Assembly: GCF_000003815.2 (NCBI RefSeq)
Contig: NC_049985.1
Location: 356,327-420,326 of the forward strand
Origin: Branchiostoma floridae
Taxonomy: Eukaryota; Chordata; Leptocardii; Amphioxiformes; Branchiostomatidae
Direction of reading: 5' to 3'
Length of the DNA: 64,000 bases
The notes beneath the pieces are model-generated. The model was given only the letters and a program-made list of their open reading frames with translations, was not told where the DNA came from and ran no database searches. A program made the position numbers and the translations under genes. Below are positions 6,340-61,880 of the stretch, in pieces; position 1 is the first letter of the stretch; the number at the start of each line of letters is the position of its first letter.

Positions 6340-6480
6340 CTACTACAGCGGCTATTGTAATTGCTGCTGTTGTTGTCACCAGGGGAATATAGAGCAGCCG
6401 TCCTCTCGCGCCATGGCCAATTGCTGTTGCTGTTGTTGTTATTGTTGTTATGTTTGTTATTGCTGTTGTTGTTATCACCA
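6340..6480 (-). repeat. Duplicated end of the last exon, with (CAA)n tracts
   Basis: The final codons of the speriolin-like gene, ending in AREDGCSIFLW and a TGA stop at 6477-6475, recur at about 6376-6418 as AREDGCSIFPW plus TGA. Each copy is followed by a run of CAA/CAG triplets. The two copies are about 100 bases apart. The second lies in the 3' UTR. Confidence 0.85.
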
Positions 6481-9400
6481 GAGGAAAATGGAGCAGCCGT
6501 CCTCCCGCGCCATTGCCAGCAGACAGTCCAGCACCACCAGCATGTCGTACCGGAAGGGCTCGGGCACCAGACGGCCCACCGCCTCCCGGAGCAGCTCCGG
6601 GTCATGGTAACCTGGGGACAGAACACGGGTTACTATGGTAACCTGGGGGCAGAACACGGGTAACTATGGTAACCTGGGGGCAGAACACGGGTAACTATGG
6701 TAACGGGAACCAGACGGCCCACCGTCTCACGAAGCAGCTCTGGGTCATGGTAACCTGGGGACAGAACATTGGTAACTATGGTAACCTGGGGACAGAACAT
6801 TGGTAACTATGGTAACGGGCACCAGACGGCGGGTAACTATCATGGTAACCTGTGAGCAGAACACGGTTTACTATGGTAACCTGGGGACAGAACACTTGTA
6901 ACTATGGTAACGGGAACCAGACGCCCCACGGTCTCACGTAGTAGCTCCGGGTCATGGTAACCTAAGGACAAAGCACGGGTTACTTTTTTTTTTTTTACTC
7001 AATGGTCAGCACGTAACAAGACCTGAAGGCCACTCAAATTACTATGGTAACTTGGGGACAGAACACGGGTAACTATGGTAACGGGAAACAAACGGGCCAC
7101 CGTGTCACGGAGCAGCTCCGGGTCATGGTAACCTGGGGACAGAACACGGGTAACTATGGTAACCTGGGGGCAGAACACGGGTAACCATGGTAACCTGGGG
7201 ACAGAACACGGGTTACTATGGTGGCCTGGGGACAGAACACGGGTAGCTATGGCAACCTGGGGATAGAACACGGGTTTCTATGGTCACCTGGGGACAGAAC
7301 ACGGGTAACCATGGTACGTTAGGGACATAACACGGGTAACTATGGTAACCTGGGAGACATACGACAAACAGTTATGGTAGCTTAGCAACATTGGTAACAA
7401 CGGAACACAACAGCTGTAGTAACCTAGGAGACGGAATACAAGTAACTATGTTAACCTGGGCGACAGAACACGGGTACTTTGGTAACCTTGGAGATAGAAC
7501 GCATGGGGCCCTGGTAACCTTGTAGACAGAACACAACAGCTGTATCTTGTAACATTGGAGATGAAACACATGTTACTATGGCAACCTGGGGCCACTGTGG
7601 CCGCCGTTTGCTGATTCCTTAGATCACAGTCGCATCGAACCAATATATTGGTAATATGTTATTTGCAATGCGAACGGTGACCTATGTTATGCTTTCTGTC
7701 TTGCCCATTGAGCGCGTACCGTACACAGTCACGGCTATAAGTACCTTTCTGATGTACGAAGTTGTACTTGTCCCAGTCGGTGGGGAACTTGCCGAAGCGC
7801 AGCATGACGTCAGTCATGAAGAACGGGTGTCTCTGGAAGTCGAACCCGTACAGCCGCAAGGTGGCCGTGACGCGCCCCAGCTTCCGGGTCAGGAACTCTT
7901 TCTCATCCGGGTCACGCTCCAGACGCACCAGGTCGCCGATGGTGCGCAGGCTGAAGCTTTGGGCGGGAAAAGGAACGAGTGAATAAGTAAATGGGTGAAC
8001 GAATGAATGATGACGGCTACGTTACATTGGAAAGAAAGAATTTCGATTATAATGTATGTAACATGAAATCTAACCAATGTTGATAACATGGAGAACTTTT
8101 AAAGTGTGTTCCAACAAGAAAGATGCTGCATCGAATTTGTGACTGCCCGTGTGCAATCTTCATCAGGAGCGACTGACCAGTTCCTTAGGTCACGTGACCT
8201 TGCGGGGCCTCAGTGGATTACAGGTTACCAGTGTTGATTGATTTATCATGATGACCTAAAATGATTGATTGATTGTTTGTTACCTGGAAGGATCGATCTT
8301 TTGTCTCGGAAAGACGGACACCAACACGCGCTGTTCCAACTGGTGGCACACCTCCCCCAGTAGCCGGGCTTCTCTGACGTCATGGGTTTCGGACGTCCTT
8401 CGTGCTTTGCTATCCATCTTCTGTTCTCCCCCTGGAAAAGTTGCCCTCTCAGAAAAGCTCCCTCCAAGACCAGAGTCGTTGGGTTGAGCTGCCTCCTTTT
8501 TCTCAAACTGGACAGCAGTACCAGGGTGTTCCGCATGGGGGCGCGAGGTGTACAGTGCTGAAACGCCTTCCCCTAAGCCGGCAGCACCTTGTTGCTCCGC
8601 ATGGGGGCGTGGGATGTACAGTCTGGGTGCTGAAACGCCTTCATTTGAGCCGGGTGCGGGAAGAGCCAGCGTTCCTTGCCTTCTCACGTCGCGCCACAGA
8701 CACTGGTGGTCGCGAACCGTCGAGTCCAGGTCGATCAGAGTTCGCTCCAGGTGGTGCAGAACCCGCTTGATCTCGCGCACCGAGCTCTCCAACCAGACGG
8801 GGTCGGGGCCTGATGCGTCCTGGGCCCGACGACGTGTCAACGAGTCTCTCGATAACCGTACCGAGATGTCTTCCAAGACGGGATCGGGGAGTGTCTCCTT
8901 CCGTTCCCGACGGCGCGTGCCGGCTTCTCTCGCTGATCGGACCGAGCTCTCCAACGAGACGGCATCGGGGTCTGAAGCCTCCCGTGCCCGACGGTGTGTC
9001 TCTGCGTCTCTCGGTGATCGTTCCGAGCTCTCCTGCGAGACGGACTCGGGACCTGACGCCTCCCGCTCACGACGGCGCGTTGCTGCGTCCCGCGGTGGAC
9101 GGAGGGAGGCAAGTTCCTGCAGGCACCTGCTCAGTCTCCGTCCCGACACCACCGAGGCGCCGCCGCTGCCGTCCTCGGAAGAGAGCTGCGACAGCTCCGA
9201 GAGGGACTCGCACTCGTCCGCGGAGATAAGGCCCTGGTGCCAGGCGATCACAAGGCTGATGAGGGATATCTGTAATAGAAAACAGGCTTTCTCAGTCACT
9301 GCTGGAAGACAGTGACTAATACCTGAAAAATCTACCCACTTGCTTAAGCTTCATTCGAAATATAACGCTGATATCACCTTTATTCGCGGGTTATTCTATA

Positions 9401-11443
9401 TCCGGTGTTCTTCAAAACTGGGAATTTAGGGACGGACGGTGGTATGTTTTGAAAATGATTGCAATATTTTAAAAATTAAACCCCGTCCATTGATTTGATA
9501 TCTCTAAATACCCTGTGTTCAGAAACAACGGAAATAGGTTCCCCCAGCTTTTACTGAAATTTTCCCTGAAGCAGTGTATATGAAGTACCAACACAACTCA
9601 GACTTAACAAAAAGTCTACAAGATGGTATTTCAGATAAAGATTTCAGAAATTTCAATGCAGGGACTACAAAGAAAATGGTCGAAGACAAAGATGACAACT
9701 ATGCAGAAGATATGTGCCAAATTTGGTGATTTCAGACAAATCTATCTAATTTTCCAGCTATGCCGCTTGGATTATAACAAAATAAATAGAAAAATAAAAT
9801 AAACCAAGTCTGACCTGTTTGAGCTCAGCGTTGCGCCTGAACAGTTTCAGCTGTTTCCGGAGAAGATCGTTCTCGTTGCACATCCGTTCGTTCATGTTCG
9901 TCAGCCTTCGGAGGATTTCGGAGTCGTCCGGCAATCCCGACGACGACTCGGCTCCGCTCGGGCCTGACCCTTGCGTCATCGCGGTTGCCTTGTGCCTGAC
10001 CCCACCTAGCAACGATGACGATTCCCGTGTTGAAGTCTTCGACGTTGATCTTGGAGATCCCAAGGCTTCTGCTGAGCTTTCGTGACTCCTTCTGGGGCTC
10101 AAGACTGGGGTAGTTCCGACACTTGGTTCCTGAACTGTCTGCAGACTCGAAGTAGTGCTTTCTTGCGACGGCGCCGAAAACAACTTAGTTGTGGACCCAA
10201 ACGACGTTTTGTTGCTAAGAGACGTGTCCATATCACTAGATTTTTCCTGAGAGGTCAACTCGGATGGCCCTGAAGAAACCCTTGCTAGAGGAGTATTAGC
10301 ATCGTGCGATTGGTGAGAAGACTGGGACTGTAACGACGGCATCGAAGGGAAATCTCTCGCGAAGGTGTCTCGGCTACGCTCGGCCGAGCCTGCGAACATT
10401 CTGGAAGACGCCGGAGTGGATTCCCTTGTCAAGACGTCGCCCTTTTCTTGAGATTTCTGTGGAGACAGTAGACCGGAGGACGAGGATGTGAGGTAGCCTC
10501 TTGGTAGGGAGTCCCAGGCTTCAAGGTCGTTGGTACAGAGAGTGGAGGGGTAGCGGTCGGACAGCGTGCTGCTGTCACGACGTAGCTGGTCACTTTGAGT
10601 CGACATGGTTCTGCTGTCCCGCCGTAGCTGAGCCAGCATACTGCTATCCCGACGGAGCTGTCCAGACAGCACACTGCTATCCCTGTGGACCTGGTCGGAC
10701 AGCAAGCTGCTGTCCCGGCGGAGCTGACCCCGGTCGGACTGCATGCTGTCATTCCGGTGGAGCTGATCGGACAGCACACTGCTATCCCTCCGGGGCTGAT
10801 CGTTGTCGGACAGCACACTGCTGTCCCGGCGGGGCTGATCGCTTTGGGCTGACATGATACTGCTGTCGCGATGGGGCTGGTCGGACAGCACGTTGCTGTC
10901 TCGGCGTAGCTGTCCGTTTTCGTTCGACAAGGCACTGCTATCTGCGCGGTTTGATAGCACACTGCTGTCCCGTCGGAGCTGATCGCGGTCGGACAGCACA
11001 CTACTATTACGGCGTAGCTGATCACTTTGAGTCGACAGGTTACTGCTATCCCGACGAAGCTGACCGGATAGTACACTGCTGTCCCGCCGTACCTGATCAC
11101 TTTGGGTCGACAAATTACTGCTATCCCGACGGTCGGACAGCACACCGCTGTCCCGGTGGAGCTGTTCACGGTCGGATATGGTGCTGTTATTTCGGCGGAG
11201 CTGGTCGATGTCGGACAGCATACTGCCACTACTGTCCCGGCGAAGCTGTTCGCTGCTTGCTCCCCGCGACCTCTCGCTCTTCGGCGTGGACGTGAACATG
11301 ACCTTGGAAGGTCTCCGACTGGCGGAGTCTTCCCCGCTTTCTGTTAAACGCGAGGACTGTCGGCTGACCGAGGGCGTCACCTGGGGCGTGCCCGAGGGCG
11401 AGATGGTAGACAGGGAGGACCCGGGCTCGAGAGGGCTCGCCAT
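6475..11443 (-). CDS. SPATC1: Speriolin-family protein (SPATC1/SPATC1L relative)
   Basis: Four exons: 11443-9815, 9269-8284, 7956-7745 and 6611-6475. All joins have GT/AG and matching phase, giving 987 residues. The C-terminal third matches the speriolin family: EARLLGEVCHQLEQRVLVSV, then DEKEFLTRKLGRVTATLRLY, HPFFMTDVML, and an end at EDGCSIFLW just before the stop, where SPATC1L proteins end in LFAW. A leucine-rich coiled coil (ILRRLTNMNERMCNENDLLR) closes exon 1, like the N-terminal zipper of mammalian speriolin. Mammalian speriolin is a sperm centrosome protein that binds CDC20; the role here is inferred. The protein is much longer than the mammalian ones because exon 1 holds about 19 serine-rich repeats and exon 2 four 31-residue repeats. 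A minisatellite sits before the start codon and another in the last intron. A noncoding first exon may end at about 11703 (CAG/gtgagc). Confidence 0.86.
6600..7600. repeat. Intronic minisatellite carrying copies of the exon 4 acceptor
   Basis: About 30 imperfect units of 28-32 bp (ggtaacctggggacagaaca type) fill the last intron of the speriolin-like gene. The minus strand of the unit is itself the splice acceptor, ctgtccccag/GTTACC. At about 6760, 6960 and 7135 the unit runs on into degraded copies of the first 40-50 coding bases of exon 4 (GYHDPELLRDTVARL and similar). The array thus begins at the real exon edge at 6611. Confidence 0.88.
8755..9130 (-). repeat. Four coding repeats of about 31 residues
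   Basis: Within exon 2 of the speriolin-like gene, four units follow the pattern R-D-A-x-T-R-R-R-x-R-E-A-S-x-P-x-x-V-x-x-E-S-S. Charged and serine-rich, probably disordered. The DNA period is about 93 bp, a multiple of three, so copy number can change without breaking the frame. Confidence 0.85.
10530..11260 (-). repeat. About 19 coding repeats with RRDSS motif
   Basis: Exon 1 of the speriolin-like gene encodes about 19 tandem units of 11-16 residues such as QLRRDSSVLSD and QPRRDSSVLSDN. RRDSS occurs intact ten times; other units have HRDSS, RRNSS or RRDSN. R-R-x-S is the consensus of basophilic kinases such as PKA. The frame is open throughout. Confidence 0.9.
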
Positions 11444-11445
11444 GG

Positions 11446-11700
11446 TTACAACACTTCCAGTGAAGCTTGGGTTACAACGCCTTTCGTGAACGGTGTGCTA
11501 CAACGCTTTCCGTGAAGTCGCGTCACACCACCCTCCGCGAAGCCTGTTACAACACTTTTCCTGAAGCCAGTAGTGTGCTGAAAGACTTTTCGTGAAATAT
11601 TTTACAACAATTTTCGTCAGGCCTGCTTTACAACACTCACCATGAAGGCTGTTTAACAACTTTTGTGAAGCCTGTGTAACAACAGCTTTCGTGAAGCGCT
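11446..11700 (-). repeat. Degenerate minisatellite next to the start codon
   Basis: Seven to eight loose copies of a unit of about 33 bp (ttacaacacttttcgtgaag) lie directly upstream of the start codon of the speriolin-like gene, in its presumed 5' UTR. The unit nearest the gene abuts the ATG. Confidence 0.7.
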
Positions 11701-11709
11701 CACCTGCGT

Positions 11710-19800: not shown

Positions 19801-22800
19801 TAAAACATTGCAATGGGTGCAAAAAGTAGCTGTTAGTTTTGCTCTATTATCAGCTTAACACTGCAAAAAGTATCTAGTTAAAGTACAGTCAAACCTGCCT
19901 AAAAAGATCACTCAGGGGACTGATAAAATCTGGTTAGGATACTTATGCTTGTGCTATTATGGAAAATTCATGTAACGGACCACCAAATGGCGGTCACCAT
20001 TGGCCTTGTGGTCCTTATGTTAAGGTACATTGCACATGGCAATATCAATCATTTTCGGTAGATTTGACTTTGGCAATGTTACTTGGTGAGAAAGGTTAGC
20101 AGGTGCTGAAAACATGTGTAATAACTTATTGCTCGTGGTCAACTGATCAACCTTTTCTCTATAGAGGCCACCTGTACAGAGTGGCCACATTTCTCCAGTC
20201 CCTTCAGTGACCGCTATAGACAGGTTTGACTGTAGTTGAGAATGTAAACGTTGGCCACTCTGAGTCTGAGAGGTAAAACAGACGAAGAAGAGATGGCGCT
20301 TACCGGAGAAAGCTTGTGAGAACTGGTTGCCTGGATACTGTTGCCGGGTGGGGCTGCTACGGAGGGTTCCGAATGGGGGCAGAGAGCCGCCTGCTGAGGG
20401 AACTGGGGGAAAATTAAGCATTTTCTGATGACTGTGAAAATGTTGTCGCTCGATTGTTGTTTATTTGAATTAAGACCCATGACATCCAGTTAGGGCCCGG
20501 TCATGTGTTGTACAGCCACAAACTGAGGGCACTCTATTCTCTAGCCATGCATTTGTTCATAAAATCTAGCTGTTTTCTTGAAAATTCTGCAGTATCAAAG
20601 TCACACAATAACCTACGATGAATGTGACTGTGCCATAAGGTAAAATAAAGAGCACACTTTTAGCTTCAGTTGTAACATGAGGGTGCCCTAGCCTGGGTAG
20701 CATCCGGATAGTAGTTTGCTCCGACTTTTATCATTATCACTATAAACATGTACAATCCCTTCTCGCTCCGACTTTTATCATACACCATATACAGTCGTTT
20801 CTGTGCAAATCCATCTAGGAAACTTGACATCTCTAATCGTCCAAATTTTGGCCGAGCGCACTGTTTGGTCCCTACACATGAGCAAATTAAGGAATGGGTT
20901 CAAGCACCCGTTCGATCAGGCGTTCCAACACCCGAAACACCCTCCGTTCACTTGTGGGAGGACCTGTTGTTATCGAAAGCGCACTCTAGAACCTATTCCT
21001 TAATTCGCTCAATAACTGATGCTACCACTAAGACTAAGGTCTGAATGTGCAGGTCTCCAGACAAGTAACAGAAGCGAACATAGGAGCAAACTATAGTATT
21101 ACCCGGATGGTACCCAGGCTAATAGTGCCTTGAGCATGATATAGACATAATCAATAACAATAAGCAAGCAGCACATGCAGGTTTGCTTCTATTGGTGATA
21201 ATGAATACACAGCAAGGTGTCATATTTCACCTTGGAAGGTCACTGTAGGTGGTTGACCTTTAACCTTGGAACTTGGACCCCTTCCTGCATCAGCAGGGTG
21301 GGTGGAACAGGGGTCATACAAGGTCAAGGTCAGATAAGATATCTACAACATACAGCACTACTAGATGCACACATTCAGCTTTTTTTTTCAAGACCTTTTT
21401 AAGAATTTTCAAGACCTTTTTAAGAATTTTTATGTCAAAAACTTCAGGCACTTTTGCATCATTCATGCATGGTCACAAAATCTTCATTTTACTTGCTGGG
21501 GTGGAAAAAAATTCACCACTATGTCTATTAAATAAACAGCTGAAACTTGATGTCTGAGTACATTGACAGATCTAACAATGAAAATTAACATGGGGATTGA
21601 AGGACGAAAAAATTGAGACAGGAGACAACCTCTAATGACTTTTACCAACACAGATAAACTTTAAGTTAAGCCCCATACCTGGTCCGAAGGCCTGCACATG
21701 GTTGAAGGTACCGGGTGCCGGGCCTGTGATGATCGCGTCAGACATCGCCACTCTCTGTCCGCCCGCCGGCGACGACTGGTCTCTTCTGGGGTCCGCCAGT
21801 CCCATCTGGTACACGGGCAGGGCCTGGGTCGTGGGGTGGGTCAGCTGGGCCTGGGACAGGCTGGGTCGGCCCGACCCGCGCTGGGGCTGGGGTAAGGAGG
21901 TCAGCCCGGGCAGCTGGAAGCTGCTGAGGTCGGGGGCGATGCCGCCCATGGAAGCCAGACTGGAGGTGAACTTGGGGCTGCTTGTGCTGTAACCCGTGGG
22001 TTTCTGGTGGGACAGGGGCGACGTGGGTGTGTAGCCCGCGGGTTTCTGGTGGGAGAGGGGTGATGTGGGTGTGTAGCCCGCTGGTTTCTGGTGGGATAGT
22101 GGGGACGTGGGGTTGTAACCCTGTCCGTGGGGGCTCAGGTTGGGTGAGCTATGCGACAGTCCACTCTGTCGGGCCTGGTTGCCATGGGTTAGGCTGACCT
22201 GGTTGCCATGGGACTGGTTACCGTGGGATAGACTGCTCTGGTTGCCATGGGGTAGACTTGACTGGCTACCATGGGTTAGACTAGCCTGGTTACTGTGGGT
22301 TAGGATTGACTGGTTACCATGGGTTAGGCTGGACTGGTTGCCATGGGTTAGGCTAGACTGGTTACCGTGGGTGAGGCTAGACTGGCTACCATGGGTTAGA
22401 CTAGCCTGGTTACTGTGGGTTAGGCTAGACTGACTGCCATGGGTTAGGCTGACCTGTTTGCCATGGGTTAGGCTAGACTGGTTGACGTGGGCTAGGTTAG
22501 ACTGGTTACCGTGGGTCAGGCTGGACTGGTTGCCATGGGTTAGGCTCATGCCAGTCTTGGGGCTTCCTTGCGTTGTTCGCTCAAACGGTGAGGTCTGGCC
22601 CTGAGAGGGGAACGGCTGCCCTTTGCTGGAGAACATGGGTGCCTGAGCAGCAGTCTGGGGCTGGCCTTTGCTGGAGTAAAGGGGTGCCTGAGGCGAAGTC
22701 TGAGACTGCCCTTTGCTGGAGTACAAAGATGCCTGAGGAGAGGTTTGAGGCTGGCTTTTGCTGGAGAACAAGGGTGCCTGAGGAGATGTCTGTGGGGGTT

Positions 22801-25800
22801 GGCTTTTGCTAGAGAACATGGGTGCCTGAGACAAAGTCTGGGGCTGGCTTTTGCTAGAGTACATGGATGCCTGAGTAGAGGTCTGAAACTGTGGTTTGGT
22901 GTAGGACTGAGGTTTGGCTTTGGGCTGCGAGCTCTGGATCTGAGTCTGGAACTGGGCATACGGAGAGGTAGTGGTCGGCAGGTTCTGTGGGCCAGAGGCC
23001 GAGGGTTGTTGCCGTGCGGGCTGGGAGCTTGCCCCCTCACCCTGCTTGGGTAGAGAGAAGGCCTGCTGGATGGACTGTTCAAACAGTGCCTGGAACGACT
23101 TCCCAAACTGAGACCTGTAGAAAAAAAAAGAGATTTCAAAAAATCAATAAGCGACCAATTAAGGCCATCAACAGAGAAGGCACATGCTGGATCAAGAAGG
23201 CTGTCTGGATCAGTTAATGTACACGAATCATGAAGAGACAGACACTTTTTACCTTTGTTACGAAACAATCGGAAAGTCCCCTTCGCTCGTTGAAACACAG
23301 CGTAAAGGCCCTTATCACAAAGTAGGGGATTCAAATCACAGTGTAGGGGCCCCTTATGCTCAAAAGGCCAGACGAGAACACTAAAACTGTAAATGTGGTT
23401 TTGTGTTGAACTTCGCAGTTTTCGCAGTGAACTTAGAACCACCACGAACAATTTTCCATGGCAGTAAGAGACTACAGTGCATGGCGCTACTACAAACTTA
23501 AAACCGCTGCAAACAGTCCTTTTTCTTGCTACCTGCTTCTTGAACTTAAATTCCCGCAAAATTAAATGCGTTTACGGTATTAGATTAAAATCTGATTTTC
23601 GAAGTACCTGGTGTCCGATGGTGGTCTCTGCTGTTGCGGCTGTGACGATACACTGGGAGGACTCTTCATAGTTGGCCGAACAACGTCACTTGCGGGTTTC
23701 TTTGCGGCGATTTGCGGAGGGCTCGCTTTAACCACAGCCGTTAAGTCCTGTGCGGGCTGCGAGTGCGACCGCGCCTGTCTCACCACCGCGTCGATCGCGT
23801 TCCCGATGGAGTTATCCGTGGGCGAGTCTTTAAGGTGCGAGGAGGAAGAAGGGGGTGAGAACTCCTTGGGTTTCGTCTTGGATCCGTCCAGGTCTGCATA
23901 GTCCAGTAGGGTGGGGATGAAAGAGGCGATGGAGGACGTCAGGGCGGGGGCGTTGGGGAGAGACGTCGACGATGTGGCGATGTGCTGCTTTTCCGCGGTC
24001 ACGCACGACGCGAAGAGCGACATCGACTGGAGAGCGGACGGCGATGACGACGCTGGCGTCGACGTTGTCATGGCAACGGGTTTGGGGAACGTCTGGCTCG
24101 GCGGGGTGGAGTTGTTGGCGCCGACGATTCCGGAAGGGATCCCCCCTGGCGATGGTGCCTTGCGCTCCTGCTGTAAGGGGAGTGAACACAAACGTAAGCG
24201 CCACCTAGCGATTAACACGCATACTGCACAAGGTTCATGCGCTCTGCTGTAAGGGGAGTGAACACAAACACGTAAGCGCCACCTAGTGATTCATAGGAGT
24301 ACTGCACAAGGTTCATGCGCTCCTGCTGTAAGGGGAGTGAACACAAACGTAAGCGCCACCTAGCGATTCACAGGAGTACTGCACAAGGTTCATGCTGTAA
24401 GGGGAGTGAACACAAACGTAAGCGCCATCTAGCGATTCACAACAGTACTGCACAAGGTTCATGCGCTCCTGCTGTGAGGGGAGTGAACACAAACGTAAGC
24501 GCCACCTAGCGATTAACACGCATACTGCACAAGGTTCATGCGCTCCTGCTGTAAGGGGAGTGAACACAAATGTAAGCGCCACCTAGTGATTCACAGGAGT
24601 ACTGTACAAGGTTCATGCTCTCAAGCTGTATGGGGAGCAACGACAGGCATAAGCGCCATCTAGTGACTTACAGCAGTACTGCACAAGGTACATGCACCAA
24701 ACGAGGTCCAACCAGTGAGGTATACAATCTGCTCATTTTGCTTTAAAACATCTGAGAAATCGAACTATCTTTTCTGAAATATGGGTTAAATAAGACAGAG
24801 CCTGTGTTCTCATAGCTTTCCAAGTTGAAAGCTGTTCATAAATGTTTGCTGCAAACTTAAAAGTTGCCGGGGAAATTAAGTTTGTCGAGTTTGTACGGAA
24901 AACTCTGACTACATTGTATGCTCTGTGACTGGACCTCCAGCATGCAATCAAATAAGAATTTTTTTTTCAATTTCACAGAAGAGATACGGACTGATGCATC
25001 GCAACAACTACATGTTGGGCAACCTGCAGTGAACTGGAAGATAGGTCAAGAAAAATTCCGAATTCATAAAAAAAGTAAAACTTGCTGAAACTAAAATGTT
25101 AGCCATTTGGAGACCAACAGACCAGCACACTTCAGTTGGATGTGGGGATGTGTACATGTACCAAGTATTGTTTAGGTACAGGTCCAAAATACCAAAATAT
25201 CAAGATACCGTACAATGTACAATGTACACATCCCTATTGTAAAGCCTCTGAAAATGAAAGCATATCCAACACATTTTTTCCAAATTCCTAGAATCATGAC
25301 AAGGTAAGATCCTAACAGCAAGGGCTCACACCAACCCTTGAGACTGCAGGATCCCAGGGTTCCGTTTGGCCTACCTGCTGGCTCCACCCCCACACATGGG
25401 GTGGATGGTCCAGCCCAAACTGGAAAATACAATGGAAAACACCCACAGTGAGGGAGAACCCATTACGTTTCTGGGGGTGACGCTCTAAAATATGATTAAA
25501 AATACCCCACACAAAAACACAATCATTGCCTAAAAAAAAATTGGACTGCTGCAACCCTGGAAAAAATACATTCTCATGTACAATGTATAATGAATGGGAT
25601 ATTCTGACGGCACTTAAGTTCACATGTACGTATGACATGCGCCAAGCAAGTTTAAAAAATGTACTCCATAAAAATATATTTATTTCTTTTTTCTGTAGAG
25701 ACAAAGTGAATAGCACATACATGTAGATATCTGTCAAGTATAGCCGGACAAGTGAATGCTCCGACGTACATATTTCAAGACTTTTAATTAATTTCATTCA

Positions 25801-28800
25801 GACTTAAGCTAAGAAAACATTAGCTAAACACAAACCTTGACAATTGCTGCTTTCTTTGGCGCAGGATTCACTTGTACTGTGGAGAAATGATCAAGACGTT
25901 TTGTAGATGAAATAAAATAAGACAGTAAAAATTTTCTGTGTGAACAACAGTTGCACAAATGACGGATGAAAACAGTGGATAAATAAAGAATAGTTCAACT
26001 TACTCTTTTTCTGCTTTGGCCTGAAAGATACAGAGAAAACAGAATTTTATTATGATACTGATAGGTCAGAGATATTTAAGGAAGAAAATCAAGATGGCAA
26101 TAGTAGTCTACATGTGGCCAGATATTGGATAACAGTTTGATTAAAAGTTCCAGATGGAAATTTTGCAGTTTTGGCTATCCTACTAAAGGGTTACTGGTGT
26201 CCAAGATGTTGGTTAGCAAGTCCGCTTTCATTTTCATGAATTCAAAAACTGACAAATGAAATTGGTGTGGCATAAACTGAAGACCAACTCACGGCTGTGC
26301 AGTTATACAGTTGTGGATACATCTACTCTCCTTAAACAGCATCCTGCAATACAGTAGAAGACATAATTCACACTGTGAAACATACAATTTACAATCATAT
26401 TGGCTACACAGATACAGATACTGAAGCTGGTGTTATGCCTAAGGACAGTTACATCGGCTGTACTGATATAGATATATGTATACAGATCAGGGTTGTAGCC
26501 AGCCAGAAATCATTTTCTGTCCCCTCGATTTTGAATGGCTTTGGCGCAGCGTTCCTAGGGGGTCCGGGGGCATGCTCCCAAGGAAAATTTTGAAATCTAG
26601 ACCCTCTGAAACGCTATTTTCTGCATTTTGAGGGTTAAATTTTGCTCAAAGAGGACAGAATGGGCAAATTTTTTTTCCGTCCCCAGCTGCAAAATTCCGT
26701 TAAAGGACGGAAGGACGGGTGCTGGCTACAACCCTGATACAGATGATGGTGTTTTCCACCGAAGGGTGGTTAACATGCTCGCTAAACATATACTGTCAAT
26801 TGAGGGATATAAAAGGAAAAGTTGCACTATCTAACCCCCCACCTGGCCTGCATCCAGCCCTTGGGCCAGCAGTTCTTGACCTCCTGCTCCAGGTAAGTCT
26901 TAAGGTACTCCTCGGCAGACTGGGAGCGAGACTTGTCGTAGTGCTGCACCTTGATCCGCACTACCTCGTACAGAAGTTTCCTGCGATCAAAACATTGGAA
27001 CAACAAAGCTGTTTCCTACATCTTAGTATCATTTGAGATTGGATCGGAGTTTCTCCTAGGAAAAATCCTGATCGCCATCTGTACTAGTAGAAACGGCGAT
27101 TGTACTAGTACAGATTGCGATCGAGATTTCTCCTAGGAGAAACTCCGATCGTGACCTCTCCTAGGAGAATTGGCGATTCTACTGGATCGTGATCTCTACT
27201 GTGACATATACATTGTATATAGCAGGCCTTTTCCTTGTTCTCTACAAGAACTGGGACAGAGACTTGTCGTAGTGCTGCACCTTAATCCGCACTACCTCGT
27301 ACAGCAGTTTCCTGGGATCAAAACATTGGAAAAACAAAGCTTTTTGAAACGTTATTCCCAGTGTACCTTGATCCGCACTACTTCGTACAGAAGTTTCCTG
27401 GGACAGGGACGTAGGAAAGGTTTTGAGCAACAACTTTCTCTCTGTAAAATTGCTTTTGCAAATTTGTTCCTTGTTTCACAGCATTTTAGTTACATTCACT
27501 ATTCCAAGATTTTGACTGCAATCTATAACCACGTACAGCAGTTTCCTGCAGGGACCAGGGTGTAGAAAAGGGTTTGACGAACAAGTTTCTCTCTGTAAAA
27601 TTGCTTTTGTCACTTGATTCACAGCATATTAGTTTTTTTTCACTATTCCAAGATCTTGTCTGTAAAGTAAAATCACGTGGGAATAGGAAATGTGACTGTA
27701 GCATTGAAGTCTTGTTTTCCATCAGCTACACAGACAGGACATACATTATGCCCCCATTTTACCCTCTGAACCTTTCCTCATCGTTTAACACTGGTGACTA
27801 CCTGTGTGTAGGTTTTGTCTGTCAAAACGTATACAAGAAGAGAAAGTAACAACTCGATAAGCTGTGAACTGACCAGATGTCAGAGCTCCACTCAAACTAA
27901 TGAACTTGAAACCAGAAATTTTAGATTCGAAAACCCCAACCAAAAGACTATTTGTGTTGGTGTTTTTTTTTTTGGTTTCTCCTGTCGATTGGACAGATGA
28001 GGAGGCAGACAGGCTATTTGCCTGTTTGCCTGACCTGCACATGACTTTTTATGGTGAAGGAGGGGTGTGCAATTCTTTCTCCACCCTCTCGTCTACTGGA
28101 GCACTAAGTTTCACAGGGGCAACTGTATGCAACGTGTGAGGCGGCTCCAGCAGATGCAGCTTTGTTGTTCGGAGTATCCGTCTCCTAGGATGACTTCCAA
28201 CCAAGGATGTAGGGGGTTCCTCCTACCCCCGACTCGTGTGCCATGGCGGGTGCCGCTTATGCCCGAACATGCCCCTTAAAGGCCTGTCTCGGCCACATAG
28301 CCCCACCAAGCCTCAGATACTCATTTACACCTGAGTTAAGTGTCTGAGGAAAGTCGTGTAAAGTGAGACAGCCTTTCCCAAGGGCACAAGATCGGTGACA
28401 CAGCAGCTGGATTCGAACCCGCAACCTCTCGGTCTCGAGCCGAACATGCTGCCACTGTGCCACGCGGTCCCACCGTTAGCACAGTAAAACCAGCTAAACC
28501 ATCAATAACAGAGTCTGACCTGATCTCGTCTGTCCACTCAAACTTCCTCCGGGGCATGCTGGACCGTTTGATCTTGATGTTGTCCAGACTGTTCTTGGTT
28601 CCTTCTTCATCCTCATCTGAGGTGGACCCTGCTGGGTTCTCCTGTTCCCCGTCCTTGTGCAGGCTCTGTTGACTCTCCTGTATCCTAGAGACAGACAAAC
28701 AAACAAACAAATAAACAACCAAACAACAAGCACCAAAGGTTGATTTTTGCATCTGTAAGCTAGAGAGTCTGAGGTGGACCCTGGGTTCTCCTGTTCCCCG

Positions 28801-30950: not shown

Positions 30951-30990
<40 letters not shown>

Positions 30991-51110: not shown

Positions 51111-51577
51111 GGAAGGGAAGGAGATACAGACACAGATACAGAAGACCGCCCCCTCCCCAACTCTACATACTCAGCATCATATTCCCTTGCCTTGTGTATA
51201 ACAACTTTGTTTACTGAAAAAGTACCACATACCGGGGATACTGCTCAGTAGAACAAAACATGTTTTTCTTCTTCTGCAGTGTACGTTTTTGACATGATTT
51301 TGTTTGAGGACAGCATACACTGAGCTGAGAGACAGAGAGATCGCCCCCCTCCCCACCTCTCTCTCTATCATATATATTAAGCGTTATAAATCCATTGTGA
51401 CTCGTTGAATAACTTCGTATACGTAGGGAAGATCCTCGTACTGTTCGGGTTCGTACAGATAGTGAGGAGTGACGGGGATGGGCTGAGAAAACAGAAAGGT
51501 GGCCCCCCCTCCCCACCTTTGAGTACTGAACAATATAACTCTTGCAACTCTTTGGATAACCTGGTAAACCAAGGTAG
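51111..51577. repeat. TIMM8-MTG1 spacer with loose repeats
   Basis: Three loose copies of a unit with agatcgcccccctccccacct at about 51145, 51340 and 51505. No gene seen. On the minus strand an open frame through it is a repeat artefact. Confidence 0.6.
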
Positions 51578-51861
51578 AACTCTATATACTGTTTAGTAAT
51601 AGTAGAAAGATTTTGTTTCGTTTTTGCACCATTTGAACAATTGGTTAAACTGAAAAAGCTAAGCAAGATGGCGAGTTCCAGGGCTGCGAACAAGTTTCGC
51701 ACAGCGTTCAAGTAAACTGCTCAGTCTTTGGATCCACCTGGTACACCATATACTGGTCCATGTACTGTTCAGTACTAATAGAAAGATTCTGTTTCATTTT
51801 TGTACAGTGTTGAGGCTCTGAACATTTGGTCGAGGAACTGTGAAAAAGATTTTAAAACAAG
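51578..51861 (+). repeat. Duplicated 5' end of MTG1
   Basis: A stretch of about 140 bp (51578-51715) with agaaagattttgtttcgttttt, aagatggcgagttccagggc and so on is repeated at 51774-51905. The upstream copy carries its own ATG (51668) and the same first 14 codons as MTG1, then diverges to a TAA at 51713-51715. It would act as a short upstream open frame if transcription begins before it. Confidence 0.92.
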
Positions 51862-52812
51862 ATGGCGAGTTCCAGGGCTGCGAACAAGTTTCGCACAGCG
51901 TTTAACTACAAAGGGTACGAGGTAGCGCGATGGTTCCCCGGTCACATGGCCAAAGGCTTGGGCAAGATGCGGAGGCAGCTGAAGGGCGTTGACTGCGTCA
52001 TCGAAGTTCACGACGCCAGAATTCCGATCTCCGGTCGGACGCCTCGCTTCCAGGAAACGCTGTCCATACGACCTCACCTGCTGATGCTGAACAAGATTGA
52101 CCTCGCCGACCTTTCCAGGAAAAGGGAAATCGAGGAGAAGCTACGACAGCAGAATGTCGAACACCTGACCTTCGCGAGCTGCACCACCTTCAAGGACAAA
52201 GATGTGAAGCAGATCATGCCCAAGGTCATGGACATCTTGGCCTCTTCTCCGGAATTCTACAAGGGAGAGGACGATGACATCACTCTGATGGTGATCGGGA
52301 TCCCGAACGTTGGGAAATCATCGCTCATCAACGCCTTCCGGAGAATGTACCTGAAGAAGGGGAGAGCCACACCTGTGGGGAAGGACCCGGGGATCACGCG
52401 AAGCGTCCTTACAAAAATCCGCGTCTCGGACAGGCCGTCCGTCTTTCTACTCGACACTCCAGGCGTGCTCTCTCCGAACATTCCCGACGTAGAGACGGGC
52501 TTCAAGCTGGCGCTCGTCGGTGCCATCAAGGATCACCTGGTCGGGGAAGACTTCTTGGCGGACTACTTGCTCTTCCGGCTGAACCGCCAGGAGAACTTTC
52601 GCTACGTGGAGCACTACAAGATGCAGGAGCCGTGCGACCACGTCTTGAAGATGCTGGGACACATCGCCGTGCAGATGGGGAAGTCTCGCAAGATCAAGAT
52701 GGACTCTGGCACGGGCTCCATGATCATTCACCAGCCCAACTTCCAGGCCGCAGCACTGCAGTTCCTTAGGGACTTCCGGCAGGGGGCGCTAGGGCCTGCC
52801 ATGCTGGACTAA
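51862..52812 (+). CDS. MTG1: MTG1, mitochondrial ribosome-associated GTPase 1
   Basis: 316 residues in one uninterrupted exon. GTPase motifs come in the circularly permuted order of the YlqF/RbgA family: G4 NKID at 77-80, G5-like SC at about 106-107, G1 GIPNVGKSS at 146-154, G2 threonine T179 in DPGITRS, G3 DTPG at 198-201. The N-terminal RWFPGHMAKGLGKMRRQLK is a family signature. MTG1 acts at the inner mitochondrial membrane in late assembly of the large mitoribosomal subunit. Human MTG1 has several introns and a similar length (about 334 residues), so the lack of introns is unusual here. The CDS is intact and GC-rich compared with its surroundings. Both its start and its stop regions are tandemly duplicated in the flanks. 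Confidence 0.97.
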   Translation: MASSRAANKFRTAFNYKGYEVARWFPGHMAKGLGKMRRQLKGVDCVIEVHDARIPISGRTPRFQETLSIRPHLLMLNKIDLADLSRKREIEEKLRQQNVEHLTFASCTTFKDKDVKQIMPKVMDILASSPEFYKGEDDDITLMVIGIPNVGKSSLINAFRRMYLKKGRATPVGKDPGITRSVLTKIRVSDRPSVFLLDTPGVLSPNIPDVETGFKLALVGAIKDHLVGEDFLADYLLFRLNRQENFRYVEHYKMQEPCDHVLKMLGHIAVQMGKSRKIKMDSGTGSMIIHQPNFQAAALQFLRDFRQGALGPAMLD

Positions 52813-54340: not shown

Positions 54341-54341
54341 C

Positions 54342-54881: not shown

Positions 54882-54899
54882 ATGTGCTTGCACCTAAGA

Positions 54900-55540: not shown

Positions 55541-55544
55541 ATTT

Positions 55545-55750
55545 ATCAATATCTTGACTTGATGTTGTCCACTATGCTGCACTTGAGTCTGTTTTTCCTG
55601 TAGTTCAGCTTTTTGTCAAGATTTGAAGTTGTCCACTATGTTGTTCATAATGATTTGATGTTGTCCACTATGCTGTGTTCATCATGACTTGATGTTGTCC
55701 ACTATGCTGTTTATCATGACTTGATGTTGTCCACTATGCTGCACATGAGT
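55545..55750 (-). repeat. Tandem copies of the MED7 stop region
   Basis: Four partial copies of the last codons and stop of MED7 (plus strand gacttgatgttgtccactatgctg) follow the real stop at 55716-55714 into the 3' UTR, at spacings of about 35-60 bases. Confidence 0.88.
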
Positions 55751-58700
55751 CTGTCTTTCCCGTAGTCCTCGTCGCGTTTGCTCTGCGAGATTCCCGCCCG
55801 TCGGTTCAGCTCCTCCAGGTTCGGCTTGACGTCCTCGCTGTCAGAAGCGCCCCCTATGTCCTCGGGCATGGACTGCACGCACTGCTTCAGCATGTCGATG
55901 ACTCGGTCCAGGTGCTGCTGGAACCTGAAAAAGAAAAGAATCATTGTGTCATGCTGTAGACTGCAGTTATTATCAAATCTGCTAGGTGGCACTACTGTGT
56001 GGTCAGAATGCAGGTGGTGGTGCAGGGATTGTTGCTTCATTTGCAATTTTGCCTTCTTTCTGTACTTGCTGCCATAAACCAGGTGAAACCAATACAAACT
56101 TGGTGCCAAAAGACAACCTTAGCTGACAGACAGTCAAGGACCGATTTTAAGCTACTCTGTACTGTCTATTCAGTGATATATGCTCATCATCTTGCATATT
56201 GACGGCAAACCCCACCCCCACAAAAAATCAGAACAGCTAGTAACAAAAAAATGGACTTGAGAAGAGAAGGACCAGATGACTGGTGAAAATATTGTTGGTA
56301 AGCTCTGTACTTCAGGTGCGGAAAGACAATTTTTTAAACATATCTTGTGTTAATTTCTTGATATACTTTCTTAAAACTTTAATTTTTTGTTTCCACAAAA
56401 GGTTTTTAAATGTGACCCTAGCGCTTCTTACTCTCACCTGTCTGCGGTCTCCAGCCTTTGTCGTTTCTGCACCTGGTGTGTTACACCATGAAGTGGTTTA
56501 TCGGATATGCAGCTTGTACAGTCAAACCTGCCAGAGCGACCACCTCTTCTCAGCGACCACCTGGCCATTTCGACCGCTTTTTCTCGGTCCCGATTTATTT
56601 TCCCATTGACGTAAGCATTAAGCGACCTTTTCTCAACGACCACCTGGCCAACGCGACCGCGACCGGCCCATATTGGGACCCATAACGACCGCATCATTTT
56701 CAAAATTGAGGTTTTCATCGATTTTTTATGATAAATAGCGCGATTTTGTGCCGAAATCGGCCAGTTTGCGTCAGATTTTGGGGTTAAATTTACAGTTTAC
56801 AGTGTGCGTGTTGTATTTGACATTAAAGACCTCACTTCTTTGCGTGCGTGCAGTGTGCTTGCTATTTGCCATTAAACACAGCGGAAACCATTTATACTTT
56901 GCATCGGGCATGTTTTGAGTCGATACTCTTCTCAGAGACCACCTGTCCAAATCGACCGTTTTTTCCCGGTCCCCCGGGTGGTCGCCTTGGGCAGGTTTGA
57001 CTGTAGTTGTACTGTTCAGTACAAACCTGGTGTGTTACTGTTACATCATGAGGCTAGTTCACCTGAACGTATATACAGTACAAATGACACCTGTCCTCAC
57101 CTGTCTGCGGTCTCGAGCCTCTGTCGTTTCTGCACCTGGTGGTTTATCGGATATACAGCTTGTACTCTTCATTACTGTGTTACTGTTACATCATGAGGCT
57201 AGTTCACCTGAACGTATACACAGTACAAACGACACCTGTCCTCACCTGTCTGCGGTCTCCAGCCTCTGTCGTTTCTGCACCTCCATCATGACGCGCAGAG
57301 TCTCCCGCGCCTGGTGCGGCCGGTACTCGTTAATCAGGTGGTGCATGTGGATGAACAGCAGGTTCAGGTCGTCAATCTTCTCCTCCCTGTTGTCATGGTA
57401 ACACAACAAAAAACATGTTTGACAAAATCACCATGAGGTGGTATATCGGATATGCAGCTTGTACTGTTCAGTACATGTGCATGTGGATAAACAGCAGGTT
57501 CCATCTTCTCCGCAACAAAAATATACATGAAAAATGTTTGACAAAAATGCCCCTGCAATGCCACTACTAGAGGCTAGGGGTACTCGTTAATCAGGTGGTG
57601 TATGTGGATGAACAGCAGGTTCAGGTCATCAATCTTCTCTTCCCTTTTATGTGAAAAAACAACAAAAAATACATGTAAATGAGAACAAAAACTTTACAAC
57701 TACGCCTGGTATCCAAACCTATTAAAATTACCAAGTCTCTTCAAAGATCCTCTCGGATTTGTGGTAAAAGGGAAAGGCAAAGATAATGATAGGTAAAGGT
57801 AGTCCCATAGCCTTTTTGAGGTTGTAGGGGCCGTGGGTTGTTATCCACTGTGTGTAGGGCACAGCATTGGGAGGAGGAGCCCAACCCTTTCCTTTCACCC
57901 AGGCTTTTAGCTAGGATTTTATAATAGGGAGTCCAAAGTTATTGGTGAGTCACGGTAAGTGACTATTGCCACCTTCCATGGTTTTTGATGATTTTAAGTT
58001 TAAAAAGTGCATTCTTAGGTTTCCCAAGAGGCAAAAATACTGTTCCAGAGGTCATAGTAGAAGACTGTGACCACAGATGACCTGTTAGCATCCCTGGTCA
58101 ATCAGAATTTCATGCTTGTCTGACGATTTTCTCTGTAGTGAAAGGGCGTCCAGGGGCATCAAATTTCTTGTTATTCTAAGAAAAGTGCGTCCAGATGACG
58201 CGTTGACGCATGCCTGGCTAAAAGCCTGCTTTCACCGCCCCATTAGAAGTCAGGTACATGTTTTTGCTAAGGGTTTGACATTGGTGACTTGATAAGGGAT
58301 TGGAGCTCTTCCCAGCTCTTCTGGGTTCTAATCCCTTAAAGGGACATAATGTAAAATTAAAGTCACTGTTTTCGGTCATTTCTCTACATAATGAGTTGAG
58401 TTTACCTTATTACACTGCACAGCAATATTTACAACGTATGGATACGACTTTGTTGAGCCGTGAGAATGTCTTGAAATATGCGCACTTCCCTCCGCCGCTT
58501 GAGTTGTCCGCCATTTTATTCAACTCGCCGGCGAGCCAAAGTGCGCTTTAGAACGCGTTCGGTGGTTCGCTCGAATCATTACTGAAGTTTGTTGAAAGTC
58601 CCGCTACGCTCCGAAGATCTGCGACAGCAACGGTCGATTCGGAAATCTACGGTCGGCTTACTTCCGGTAGGCTACCCGGAAGTAAGTGAATTTGGTCCCG

Positions 58701-61016
58701 GCTTACTTTGACGTTGTTAATTAGCACTAGAAATGTGATAAAATGACACAGATAAGTTAGAAATAAGTTGCAAATGTCAATCTGAATGGAGATTTTCAAG
58801 TTCAGAACATTTGAAATTTTGGCGCCATATTTCTACATTATGTCCCTTTAACAAATCACCAATGTTAAAGCTTCAGCTTCTCTGGGTTCTGGTACAAACA
58901 CCCTAGTGATCGCAATAAAAAATTTTCCCAGCAACTGTATTGAATTTGGAAAAGGTCAAGACAGTTTTGGTTTGTTCGATCCCAAGAAGAAAATTTCCAT
59001 CTCAGAGCGAGGGTCCTGGAGACAGATACAGAAAACAGTGGTAAGTGTAAGTGTAAGTTAGATTAACTGTCCAGCTTACCTGCATGGGGTGTTGGGAGAC
59101 TTGATGAGAATGTCATCAGGCTTACCTGCGAGGAGTGTTGGGGGACTTGATGAGAATGTCATCAGGCTTACCTGCGAGGAGTGTTGGGAGACTTGATGAG
59201 AATGTCATCAGGCTTACCTGTGTGGGGTGTTGGGGGACTTGATGAGAATGTCATCAGGCTTACCTGCGTGGGGTGTTGGGGGACTTGATGAGGATGTCAT
59301 CAGGCTTACCTGCGAGGAGTGTTGGGGGACTTGATGAGAATGTCATCAGGCTTACCTGCGAGGAGTGTTGGGGGACTTGATGAGAATGTCATCAGGCTTA
59401 CCTGCGAGGAGTGTTTGGAGACTTGATGAGGATGTCATCAGGCTTACCTGCGAGGGGTGTTGGGGGACTTGATGAGAATGTCATCAGGCTTACCTGCGAG
59501 GGGTGTTGGGAGACTTGATGAGGATGTCATCAGGCTTACCTGCGAGGAGTGTTGGGGGACTTGATGAGAATGTCATCAGGCTTACCTGCGAGGGGTGTTG
59601 GGAGACTTGATGAGGATGTCATCAGGCTTACCTGCGAGGAGTGTTGGGGGACTTGATGAGGATGTCCAGCAGGTCCAGGAAGTTGACCAGGATTGAGTGG
59701 TTCAGCTTCTTCAGCTCCAGCTTGTGGTCAAACTTGTCTGGATGGAGGCGACGGATTCCCTGCACAACACACAAAGGCAAGGTTAAAGTTAATTTTGAGC
59801 TGTACTTATTGCACAGAGTCAAATTCTGTACGTTTGAGGAATTACAAACCAAAATGTTGTTTTTTCTCATCAGTCATATTTTGAGTGTGGTGGGTTCTTT
59901 AATGTGCTTGAGGTGTGGCATTCTGCAGCAAGGTACTTATTTACACCTGAGTGAAGTGGGGAAAGTCATGAAGAGTGCCTTTCCCAAGGGCACAAGGGCG
60001 GCGGCATATCTACGGATTTAAACCCCAACCTCTGGGTTACGGTCCCAAAACCCTGCCATTAAGCCCCACTTGATTTCTTTATTTATCCTTGGTAATCCTA
60101 TACAGTTATCAATATCTATACAGCCTATGCTCTTGAGTGCAAACCTGGTGTATATATATAGTATGCCTTAAGGCAACAAGCAAATAAAGAGTAGAGTAGA
60201 GTAGATTCTTCGGTTAGGTAGGAGACTCGCTCCAGTTTAAACCGCTCCTCTTTCTCATCGGTCAGCATACCGTCATTATTGGTTTGTGTGGTTTGTCCAA
60301 GGCTTTATAGTTGAACATGATGGGATGGTCTTCCATGGCCCTATCTAGCCTTGATTTAAAACTGTTGACCGTTGGTGCTGTCACCACTTCTTCTGGCAGT
60401 GCGTTCCACCACGGCACTACTCTGTTGCTGAAAAAGTCATGTCTCTTGTTGGTTTTTGATATTGGCCTTGTTAAGCGTTGGCTGTGACCTCTTATTCTCC
60501 CTTCCCTCTTAACTTCCGGTGTACATGGCTCCGTGTCGTATAGCCCGTGTGTGTATTTGTATGTGATCACCTCTCAGTCTCCTGTAAAGAAGGGTGGGGA
60601 GTTTCAGGGTTCTAAGCCTTTGTTCGTATGAGAGCTCGCTCAAGCCTGGGATTCTTTTTGTTGCACGTCTTTGTATGTTTTCTATGATGTCTACTGACTT
60701 CCAGCTCCCAGGGGACCATATGGGGGCACCATACTCGATGAGAGGACACACTAGGGATTTGAAAAGGATGGTGAAGACCTCAAAAACAAACAAACAAAGC
60801 GAGATCTTTTCTGCCACTGACCTGAGACTCCAGCGGCCGGATGATCTGGTCGTCCACCTGGTAGTCGCTGCCAAACATGGAGTACTGGTCTGTGATTGGT
60901 GGAGGCGGAGGGGGCGCCAGGCCGCGGGAAACATTCTCCGTCGTGTACTGGCTGACAAACTGCATGGGGGGGAGGGGCATGGCACTCACCCCTGCCTCGC
61001 CCTCACCTTCCGCCAT
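55714..61016 (-). CDS. MED7: Mediator complex subunit 7
   Basis: Four exons: 61016-60822, 59759-59632, 57386-57246 and 55924-55714; all GT/AG, phases agree, 224 residues (human 233). The N-terminus has the proline-rich [18 protein letters not shown] region and [18 protein letters not shown]. The middle has [16 protein letters not shown], then [20 protein letters not shown] and [20 protein letters not shown], which form the long coiled coil that binds MED21. MED7 sits in the Mediator middle module that links activators to RNA polymerase II in the nucleus. The acidic C-terminus is less conserved. Three further copies of the start region lie upstream; only the Met at 61016 leads into the full protein. 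Intron 1 carries a LINE, intron 2 a 13-copy donor array, intron 3 several MITEs. Every exon has at least one edge copied in tandem. Confidence 0.97.
56420..57300. repeat. Copies of the MED7 exon 3 end and donor
   Basis: The exon 3 end and donor (plus strand ctcacctgtctgcggtctcc, then agcctctgtcgtttctgcacc) occur at 57242-57282 (real), 57093-57138 and 56435-56478. The unit of about 145 bp also holds ggtgtgttactgttacatcatgagg. A MITE (56519-57003) has landed inside the copy farthest from the exon. Confidence 0.9.
56519..57003. mobile_element. MITE with CAGTCAAACCTG ends, second copy
   Basis: CAGTCAAACCTGCC at the left and GGCAGGTTTGACTG at the right, TA outside both ends. The body includes repeated gcgaccacctgg/tcgaccg motifs. 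485 bp, related by its ends to 19886-20232. Confidence 0.9.
57420..57650. repeat. Copies of the MED7 exon 3 start edge
   Basis: The first about 65 bases of exon 3 and the acceptor side (plus strand gtactcgttaatcaggtggt ... caatcttctc.tccc) recur at 57576-57645, and a shorter version (tgtgcatgtggataaacagc) at 57472-57510, both in intron 2. Confidence 0.85.
57765..57891. mobile_element. Probable dispersed repeat (SINE-like)
   Basis: A compact stretch (taggtaaaggtagtcccatag, gggccgtgggttgttatccactg, gggcacagcattgggaggag) that does not look like intron background. I recall similar stretches as common repeats in amphioxus but cannot confirm. No pol III boxes. Confidence 0.35.
57900..58228. mobile_element. 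hAT-type MITE, perfect 8-bp duplication
   Basis: Ends CAGGCTTTTAGCTAGG and CCTGGCTAAAAGCCTG. CTTTCACC flanks both sides (57892-57899 and 58229-58236). 329 bp, in intron 2 of MED7. Confidence 0.94.
58340..58847. mobile_element. MITE with TTAA target duplication
   Basis: AGGGACATAATGTA at the left and TACATTATGTCCCT at the right are exact inverses. TTAA lies outside both ends (58336-58339 and 58848-58851). TTAA targets are used by piggyBac and Kolobok elements. 508 bp. It contains a palindrome around 58655-58687 (CTTACTTCCGG...CCGGAAGTAAG). Confidence 0.92.
59077..59660. repeat. 13-copy array of the MED7 exon 2 donor (46-bp unit)
   Basis: Thirteen units with a period of 46 bp, the last being the real exon 2 end. 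On the minus strand each unit holds about 27 bases of exon end and the donor (AACACTCCTCGCAG/gtaagc), then ctgatgacat. Twelve intact-looking extra donors therefore lie in intron 2. Confidence 0.96.
59880..60070 (-). mobile_element. tRNA-derived SINE, degraded
   Basis: On the minus strand from about 60066: a tRNA-like head with a weakened B box (GGGTTTAAATCC), then the core CCCTTGGGAAAGGCACTCTT and AGGTGTAAATAAGTACCTTG, shared with 28250-28471. Confidence 0.78.
60185..60790 (-). mobile_element. LINE 3' fragment (CR1/L2-like reverse transcriptase tail)
   Basis: Two overlapping minus-strand frames read [55 protein letters not shown], then [20 protein letters not shown] and [10 protein letters not shown]. 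This is the end of the reverse transcriptase and the C-terminal region of CR1/L2/Jockey-group non-LTR elements. A one-base shift at about 60560 splits it. The 3' end near 60190 has an (ACTCT)n tail. It is 5'-truncated and fills most of MED7 intron 1. Confidence 0.88.
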
Positions 61017-61880
61017 CTTCTGTAGTACGAAACATTAAAGACGTAAGTAAGTGTACTGGACACTAAAGACGTATAACTAAGTAAGTGTACTGGCTCACGA
61101 ACTGCATGGGGGGCAGGGGCATGGCACTCACCCCCGCCTCACCCTCACCTTCTGCCATCTTCTGTAGTTTTTTAAGAAACATAAAAGACGTAAGTAAGTG
61201 TACTGGACACTAAAGACGTAAGTAAGTGTACTGGCTAAGAAACTGAATCGGGGGGGAAGTGGCATGGCACTCACCCCAGCCTCACCATCACCTTCCGCCA
61301 TCTTCTGTAGTTCTTTAAGAAACATTAAAGACGTAAGTAAGTGTACTGGACACTAAAGACGTAAGTAAGTGTACTGGACACTAAAGACGTAAGTAAGTGT
61401 ACTGGACACTAAAGACGTAAGTAAGTGTACTGGACACTAAAGACGTAAGTAAGTGTACTGGACACTAAAGACGTAAGTAAGTGTACTGGACACTAAAGAC
61501 GTAAGTAAGTGTACTGGACACTAAAGACGTAAGTAAGTGTACTGGACACTAAAGACGTAAGTAAGTGTACTGGACACTAAAGACGTAAGTAAGTGTACTG
61601 GACACTAAAGACGTAAGTAAGTGTACTGGACACTAAAGACGTAAGTAAGTGTACTGGACACTAAAGACGTAAGTAAGTGTACTGGACACTAAAGACGTAA
61701 GTAAGTGTACTGGACACTGAAGACGTAAGTAAGTGTACTGGACACTAAAGACGTAAGTAAGTGTACTGGACACTAAAGACGTAAGTAAGTGTACTGGCTA
61801 AGGAACTGAATCGGGGGAGGGGCATGGCGCTCACCCCCGCCTCACCCTCACCTTCTGCCATCTTCTGTTCTAACAAACAT
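61017..61880. repeat. Copies of the MED7 start region plus a 28-bp array
   Basis: Three further copies of the start codon region (minus strand ATGGCAGAAGGTGAGGGTGA or close) lie at 61158-61156, 61301-61299 and 61861-61859, each preceded by cagaag. Between 61324 and 61795 about seventeen near-identical 28-bp units (actaaagacgtaagtaagtg + tactggac) fill the space. In the extra copies the frame diverges after about 17-22 codons. Confidence 0.95.

Follow-up and report, generated by a model that had tools for sequence, protein, structure and literature searches.

Tandem copies of gene edges in a 64-kb window of lancelet DNA

Genes of the window and their coding edges

Five genes were modelled in the window, that is, the whole stretch of 64 kb that was analysed, by reading the raw sequence and keeping GT/AG sites and open frames consistent with each other. 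The speriolin-like gene was identified by its C-terminus, which matches Pfam Speriolin_C (8.8e-13), ubinuclein by Pfam UBN_AB (6.3e-50; HUN lies slightly under its curated cut-off), and MED7 by Pfam Med7 (2.6e-50). MTG1 was recognised by a sequence match, over residues 6-316 of its 316, to mitochondrial ribosome-associated GTPase 1 (PDB chain 7o9m_C). A match to the zf-Tim10_DDP domain marks the fifth product as a small Tim-type protein, which we take to be TIMM8. The TIMM8-like gene and MTG1 (50832-52812) lie head to tail, and both have a single-exon coding sequence.

The modelled exons total 8,607 bp (13% of the window) and provide 57 coding-sequence edges for scoring, namely 5 starts, 4 stops, 24 acceptors and 24 donors. 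The ubinuclein model leaves out the E4 donor, an exon expected between E10 and E12 that probably falls into one of the two N gaps of the window (31260-31594 and 39039-39138), and the last exon or exons, so that ubinuclein contributes no stop to the counted edges. Exons E16 to E18 of this gene are based on splice signals and frame alone. The ubinuclein exons called 7, 11, 12, 13, 14 and 17 in the first-pass annotation are E8, E12, E13, E14, E15 and E19 here.

Two further elements were observed in the window. A tRNA-Ser-like sequence (28397-28469) is located within a ubinuclein intron, and a similar sequence downstream, near 59990, suggests by eye a tRNA-derived short repeat family. A TRIM-like stretch at 2392-4487 contains tandem copies in which the frame seems broken and, at 3408-3465, a duplication of 29 bp without mismatch; its RING finger scores above the Pfam cut-off, and B-box and NHL score below theirs.

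Edges with local copies

To score each edge, a 70-bp probe was compared with 1.2 kb on its non-coding side and with 100 local shuffles. Local copies were found at 15 of the 57 edges with scores of 41 to 135, while no shuffle of any edge scored above 33 (Table 1). Direct edge-crossing alignments were obtained for 14 of the 15. The MTG1 stop appeared one-sided in this test because the probe omits the abutting copy; the crossing was seen in a separate copy alignment, and the copy is identical at 29/30 positions across the stop codon. Among the remaining 42 edges, 39 did not exceed their own shuffle maximum, and three (the ubinuclein E6 acceptor, the ubinuclein E14 donor and the speriolin start) had one-sided scores barely over it and were not counted. 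The first-pass annotation had reported at least twelve gene boundaries copied in tandem; all 15 that it named carry copies, and they are exactly the set recovered from the 57 edges.

Copies were found at 6/24 acceptors, 4/24 donors, 2/5 starts and 3/4 stops. By gene, they occur at 6/37 edges of ubinuclein, 2/8 of the speriolin-like gene, 5/8 of MED7, 2/2 of MTG1 and 0/2 of TIMM8. The copies are contiguous, with flank and exon sequence together, and lie on the non-coding side of the edge. As the first-pass annotation had stated, a piece of exon is always included, which amounts to about 12 to about 107 bp as judged from family footprints and, for the MED7 exon 3 donor, by eye (about 36 bp, the footprint there being merged with other repeats). 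Its range of repeat periods, 28 to 150 bp, describes most arrays and fails for the MTG1 start (offset 194) and for the irregularly spaced E15 copies. The array units are mutually unrelated except for a simple repeat common to E14 and E8 (a GTTT run, by eye) and one 12-bp match; a single shared spreading element, which had already been discounted from the sequence, is thus ruled out.

Table 1. Arrays at gene edges, coding-only repeat families and the MTG1 coding sequence (positions are those of the window)
Feature	Position	Strand	Description	Basis or remark
Speriolin-like stop codon	6355..6522	-	copied into 3' flank, offset 99	family and edge alignment
Speriolin-like exon 4 acceptor	6554..7594	-	array, 31-bp unit nested in longer unit	
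Speriolin-like exon 2, coding-only	8513..9075	-	two families, 66/72 and 81/162/243 bp	
Speriolin-like exon 1, coding-only	10555..11255	-	one family, offsets all multiples of 3	
Ubinuclein E20, coding-only	21982..22891	-	three families, smallest offsets 42, 24 and 45 bp	
Ubinuclein E19 acceptor	24155..24701	-	array, 77-bp unit	
Ubinuclein E15 acceptor	26919..27672	-	three degenerate upstream copies, ~27545, 27397, 27311	
Ubinuclein E14 acceptor	28616..29407	-	array, 149-bp unit including ~70 bp of exon	
Ubinuclein E13 donor	29715..29862	-	array, 40-bp unit	
Ubinuclein E12 acceptor	30449..30952	-	copies within GT/CA microsatellite, 74-bp unit	
Ubinuclein E8 donor	35544..35815	-	real donor and one copy, 143-bp unit, (GTTT)n at junction	
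MTG1 start region	51655..51913	+	one upstream copy (offset 194), 5' flank and ~50 bp coding	
MTG1 coding sequence	51862..52812	+		single uninterrupted exon
MTG1 stop codon	52778..52879	+	array, 38-bp unit	
MED7 stop codon	55543..55768	-	array, 32 to 34-bp unit	
MED7 exon 3 donor	56427..57284	-	two downstream copies (57100, 56437)	upper limit by eye
MED7 exon 3 acceptor	57313..57650	-	upstream copies	
MED7 exon 2 donor	59070..59674	-	array, 46-bp unit	
MED7 start codon	60943..61887	-	three upstream ATG copies and nested 28-bp minisatellite	

At MED7 exon 2, the real donor and 12 copies all read AG/GTAAGC (59074-59666). At the MED7 exon 3 donor, the copy at 56437 lies beyond a repeat-rich stretch, and the called family footprint extends over 56427-57474. 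The region of the ubinuclein E15 acceptor was called as two families, one containing the edge (26919-27403) and one without it (27411-27672). The MED7 start array may be the array of a 5'UTR acceptor rather than of a start codon, since an acceptor-like CTACAG precedes the ATG by 3 bp in the real copy and in 2/3 upstream copies. At the ubinuclein E12 acceptor, the copies are interleaved by eye with long GT/CA runs over 30449-31083, and the microsatellite looks as if it had grown from the copied exon edge.

Two candidate edges were rejected. The TIMM8 stop had looked duplicated by eye, but in the alignment the copied part of the 3' flank begins 24 bp beyond the stop codon, and its downstream duplicate (51134-51360, score 37 against a shuffle maximum of 26) leaves the codon out. 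At the speriolin start, the 5' flank has a 26-bp array (11444-11517) that stops at the last base before the ATG and contains no coding sequence.

The boundary signals are retained in 54/56 copies: AG in 29/30 and GT in 17/17, hence splice dinucleotides in 46/47, and ATG in 4/4 and the stop codon in 4/5, hence start or stop codons in 8/9. Such retention would be expected if selection kept those repeats that carry a spare boundary. However, the columns flanking the boundary are nearly as conserved in the copies, and detection is itself centred on the boundary, so that a central peak of conservation is inseparable from selection on AG or GT. Moreover, the copies within one array are not independent of each other, and use of a copy is hypothetical. 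We therefore regard selection for spare boundaries as quite improbable.

Placement of repeat families at edges and inside exons

To compare the placement of repeats with chance, we defined families of local repeats by a single threshold, 24 of 30 matches at distances up to 1.5 kb, and obtained 45 families. The edge test excluded six families in the TRIM-like stretch and six coding-only ones. Among the 33 that remain, 15 contain an edge, whereas 5.0 were expected under free placement, and 0/3000 shuffles reached this number. The expectation is 3.9 when an exon overlap of up to 130 bp is allowed and 3.0 when about one unit of exon is permitted, which corresponds to a 3- to 5-fold enrichment of edge families over randomly placed footprints. 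Matching for GC content gave expectations from 3.7 (unit-limited) to 6.5 (free), and 0/1000 placements were as high as the 15/33 observed. Within gene spans, 15/24 families contain an edge, compared with 3.6 to 3.9 expected.

Similar results were obtained with Tandem Repeats Finder (TRF), for which rows with a period <18 and rows mostly inside short-period repeats were removed before merging, leaving 22 arrays. After omission of one array in the TRIM-like stretch and three coding-only ones, 9/18 arrays lie at edges (2.0 to 3.2 expected), and at a score of at least 150 the proportion is 9/11 (1.8 to 2.8 expected). The E12 array was scored as a miss in this analysis because its TRF call ends short of the real acceptor.

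Families were taken as units because edge arrays, through their copies in introns, raise the base rate per position. Tests per position accordingly gave a weak enrichment of about 1.5- to 1.8-fold with P values of 0.05 to 0.14 (14/57 edges against 9.4 expected, P 0.096; 13 against 7.4, P 0.05; 8 against 4.9, P 0.14). The excess therefore lies in the placement of arrays and not in a big rise of repeat coverage at edges. With this qualification, the tandem copying of gene edges is confirmed and statistically supported in this one window with its five genes.

An apparent excess at edges could also arise if duplications occurred everywhere and coding constraint, by fixing one of the copies, kept some of them recognisable for longer. 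Consistent with this, 17/18 families without modelled exon sequence have a mean identity of only ~0.80 to 0.85. However, the excess is strongest among families of high identity, 9/10 of those with a mean identity of at least 0.86 being edge families against 1.15 to 2.27 expected, albeit with a cut-off chosen after the list had been seen, and it is likewise strong among the high-scoring TRF arrays. Such an ascertainment effect thus appears improbable as the main cause.

Of the 39 families outside the TRIM-like stretch, 21 reach into modelled exons, which make up 13% of the window; 15 do so at edges, and six lie inside coding sequence only. The offsets of the coding-only families are divisible by three in 6/6 cases, compared with 3/15 edge families by smallest offset (Fisher P 0.0015) or 2/15 by hand-picked main period (P 0.0005). 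The divisibility of the coding-only offsets is in part a consequence of defining exons by open frames. These families are confined to two genes, where they lie in repetitive protein segments, and may represent ordinary coding repeat expansion. With 22 of 30 matches required, repeats away from edges cover 0.28 of exon, 0.14 of intron and 0.13 of intergenic sequence. With 27 of 30 required, coverage of exon interiors (0.077) is no higher than that of introns (0.091), a figure that includes the copies of edge arrays lying in introns. A preference for exons therefore holds for older repeats and for families, but not for recent coverage.

These data bear on the proposal of the first-pass annotation that functional boundaries are preferred starting points for duplication. 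The over-representation of arrays at edges was borne out; the role of boundaries as starting points was not. The coding-only families fit a duplication process that favours exons and is filtered by frame and splicing. If boundaries themselves started duplication, a step in composition, polypyrimidine or GT-rich runs, R-loops or nucleosome edges might cause breaks or slippage. In line with such an origin, there are 15 edge families but 6 coding-only ones, repeats of high identity are not enriched in the interior of exons, simple repeats occur at the E8, E12 and E14 junctions, and exon-side GC is somewhat higher at duplicated edges (0.595, n = 15) than at the others (0.536, n = 41; P 0.04). However, 42/57 edges have no edge-spanning copy above shuffles, and composition alone is not sufficient because the excess survives GC matching. 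To our knowledge, start and stop codons moreover have no sequence signal in common with splice sites. We thus consider duplication started by boundary-specific breaks unlikely and give it lower odds than exon-favoured duplication.

Proposed origin and comparison with known lancelet repeats

The intronic minisatellites of amphioxus that the first-pass annotation had mentioned are indeed on record, and their splice-site form has been named "mirages" (PMC3087553). These are minisatellite-like tandem duplications of exon-intron boundaries, described for Adh3 and the globins BflGb6 and BflGb9, with units of 10 to 160 bp at the acceptor or the donor side and the copies in the intron; splice signals are present in many but not all copies, length is unstable between haplotypes and in soma, and splicing is apparently normal (PMC3087553). 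In the window, units span the exon-intron boundary at 10/48 splice boundaries (6 acceptors, 4 donors), and AG or GT is kept in the great majority of their copies. The other five arrays, at the speriolin stop, the MED7 stop, the MTG1 start and stop, and the MED7 start with its possible acceptor, span no established exon-intron boundary; they probably work like mirages without being counted as members.

On balance, we lean towards the view that the ten splice-site arrays are lancelet-type mirages, that the five start and stop arrays are probably alike, and that both result from exon-favoured duplication sorted by selection. The arrays would have arisen by tandem duplication, at the DNA level, of a short stretch straddling an exon-intron boundary, and some would later have expanded through slippage or unequal exchange. 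Duplication, we infer, prefers exonic DNA, and its products would then be sorted: inside coding exons only copies in multiples of three would survive and frame-breaking ones would be removed, while across an edge any length could be tolerated because the intact edge beside the exon body still works. Such tolerance would leave the copies outside each edge, which agrees with the arrangement observed. The edge would hence be the place where exon-born duplications are tolerated and not necessarily their origin. In each series, the spliceosome would have to pick the exon-proximal site for the transcript to be normal, a choice predicted by pairing across the exon.

Since the MTG1 coding sequence has no intron, splicing cannot be what attracts repeats to this gene. 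The copies at both of its ends, together with those at three of four stops, therefore indicate that splicing is not required and is not the whole cause. We tentatively raise the further possibility, which we hold with clearly less confidence, that in this lineage duplication acts on coding exons as such, mirages being the part of it that frame and splicing tolerate. If so, coding repeats in threes would be expected inside exons, and frame-free arrays at all coding edges including starts and stops. A high rate of exon-directed duplication would then be recorded continuously at the edges, which would steadily provide material for new introns, alternative splice sites and extended ends.

Repeats that bear splice sites are also known from lancelet PGBD5, where tandem repeats of 60 and 108 bp overlap exons 3 and 4 with their splice sites (PMC3902484). 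This gene is informative with regard to an assembly artefact in a polymorphic draft genome, as two versions of the locus had unequal numbers of repeats (PMC3902484); one mirage in the lancelet draft likewise looked aberrantly assembled (PMC3087553), and the window itself has its two N gaps. However, the original PGBD5 repeat sequence was confirmed by new sequencing data (PMC3902484), the array units in the window differ by scattered substitutions, and the same structure recurs in separate genes. An artefact of assembly is accordingly very improbable.

The literature searched, from which subscription papers were mostly out of scope, contained neither a report of mirages at start or stop codons nor a test for anchoring at edges across a whole genome. 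Should such anchoring prove general in the genome, lancelets would provide many natural tests of the origin of introns and splice sites by tandem duplication, and of the choice of the spliceosome among identical neighbours, as at MED7 exon 2 with 13 donors in a row. The stop-codon arrays and the intronless gene separate splicing-linked from exon-linked causes.

The mirages of Adh3 and the globins have the same anatomy as the ten splice-site arrays of the window (PMC3087553). However, as far as the available part of that source extends, published mirages concern exon-intron boundaries only (PMC3087553), whereas here 15 edges are copied within 64 kb, among them stops and both the start and the stop of an intronless gene. 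In PGBD5 the repeats carry splice sites as they do here, but in the part of the source available they are limited to one gene and to splice sites (PMC3902484). In lancelet VCBP3, whole exons or parts of exons lie within introns near the coding exons that they resemble, and some of them have canonical splice sites (PMC2632668). These are intronic exon copies as found here, but tandem arrays and unit lengths do not figure in the available part of the description (PMC2632668). Intron gain by tandem duplication involves the same boundary-crossing duplication; there the new intron is spliced, while the copies described here are known at the level of DNA. The window is thus a dense instance of a described lancelet phenomenon, extended to stop codons and to an intronless gene.
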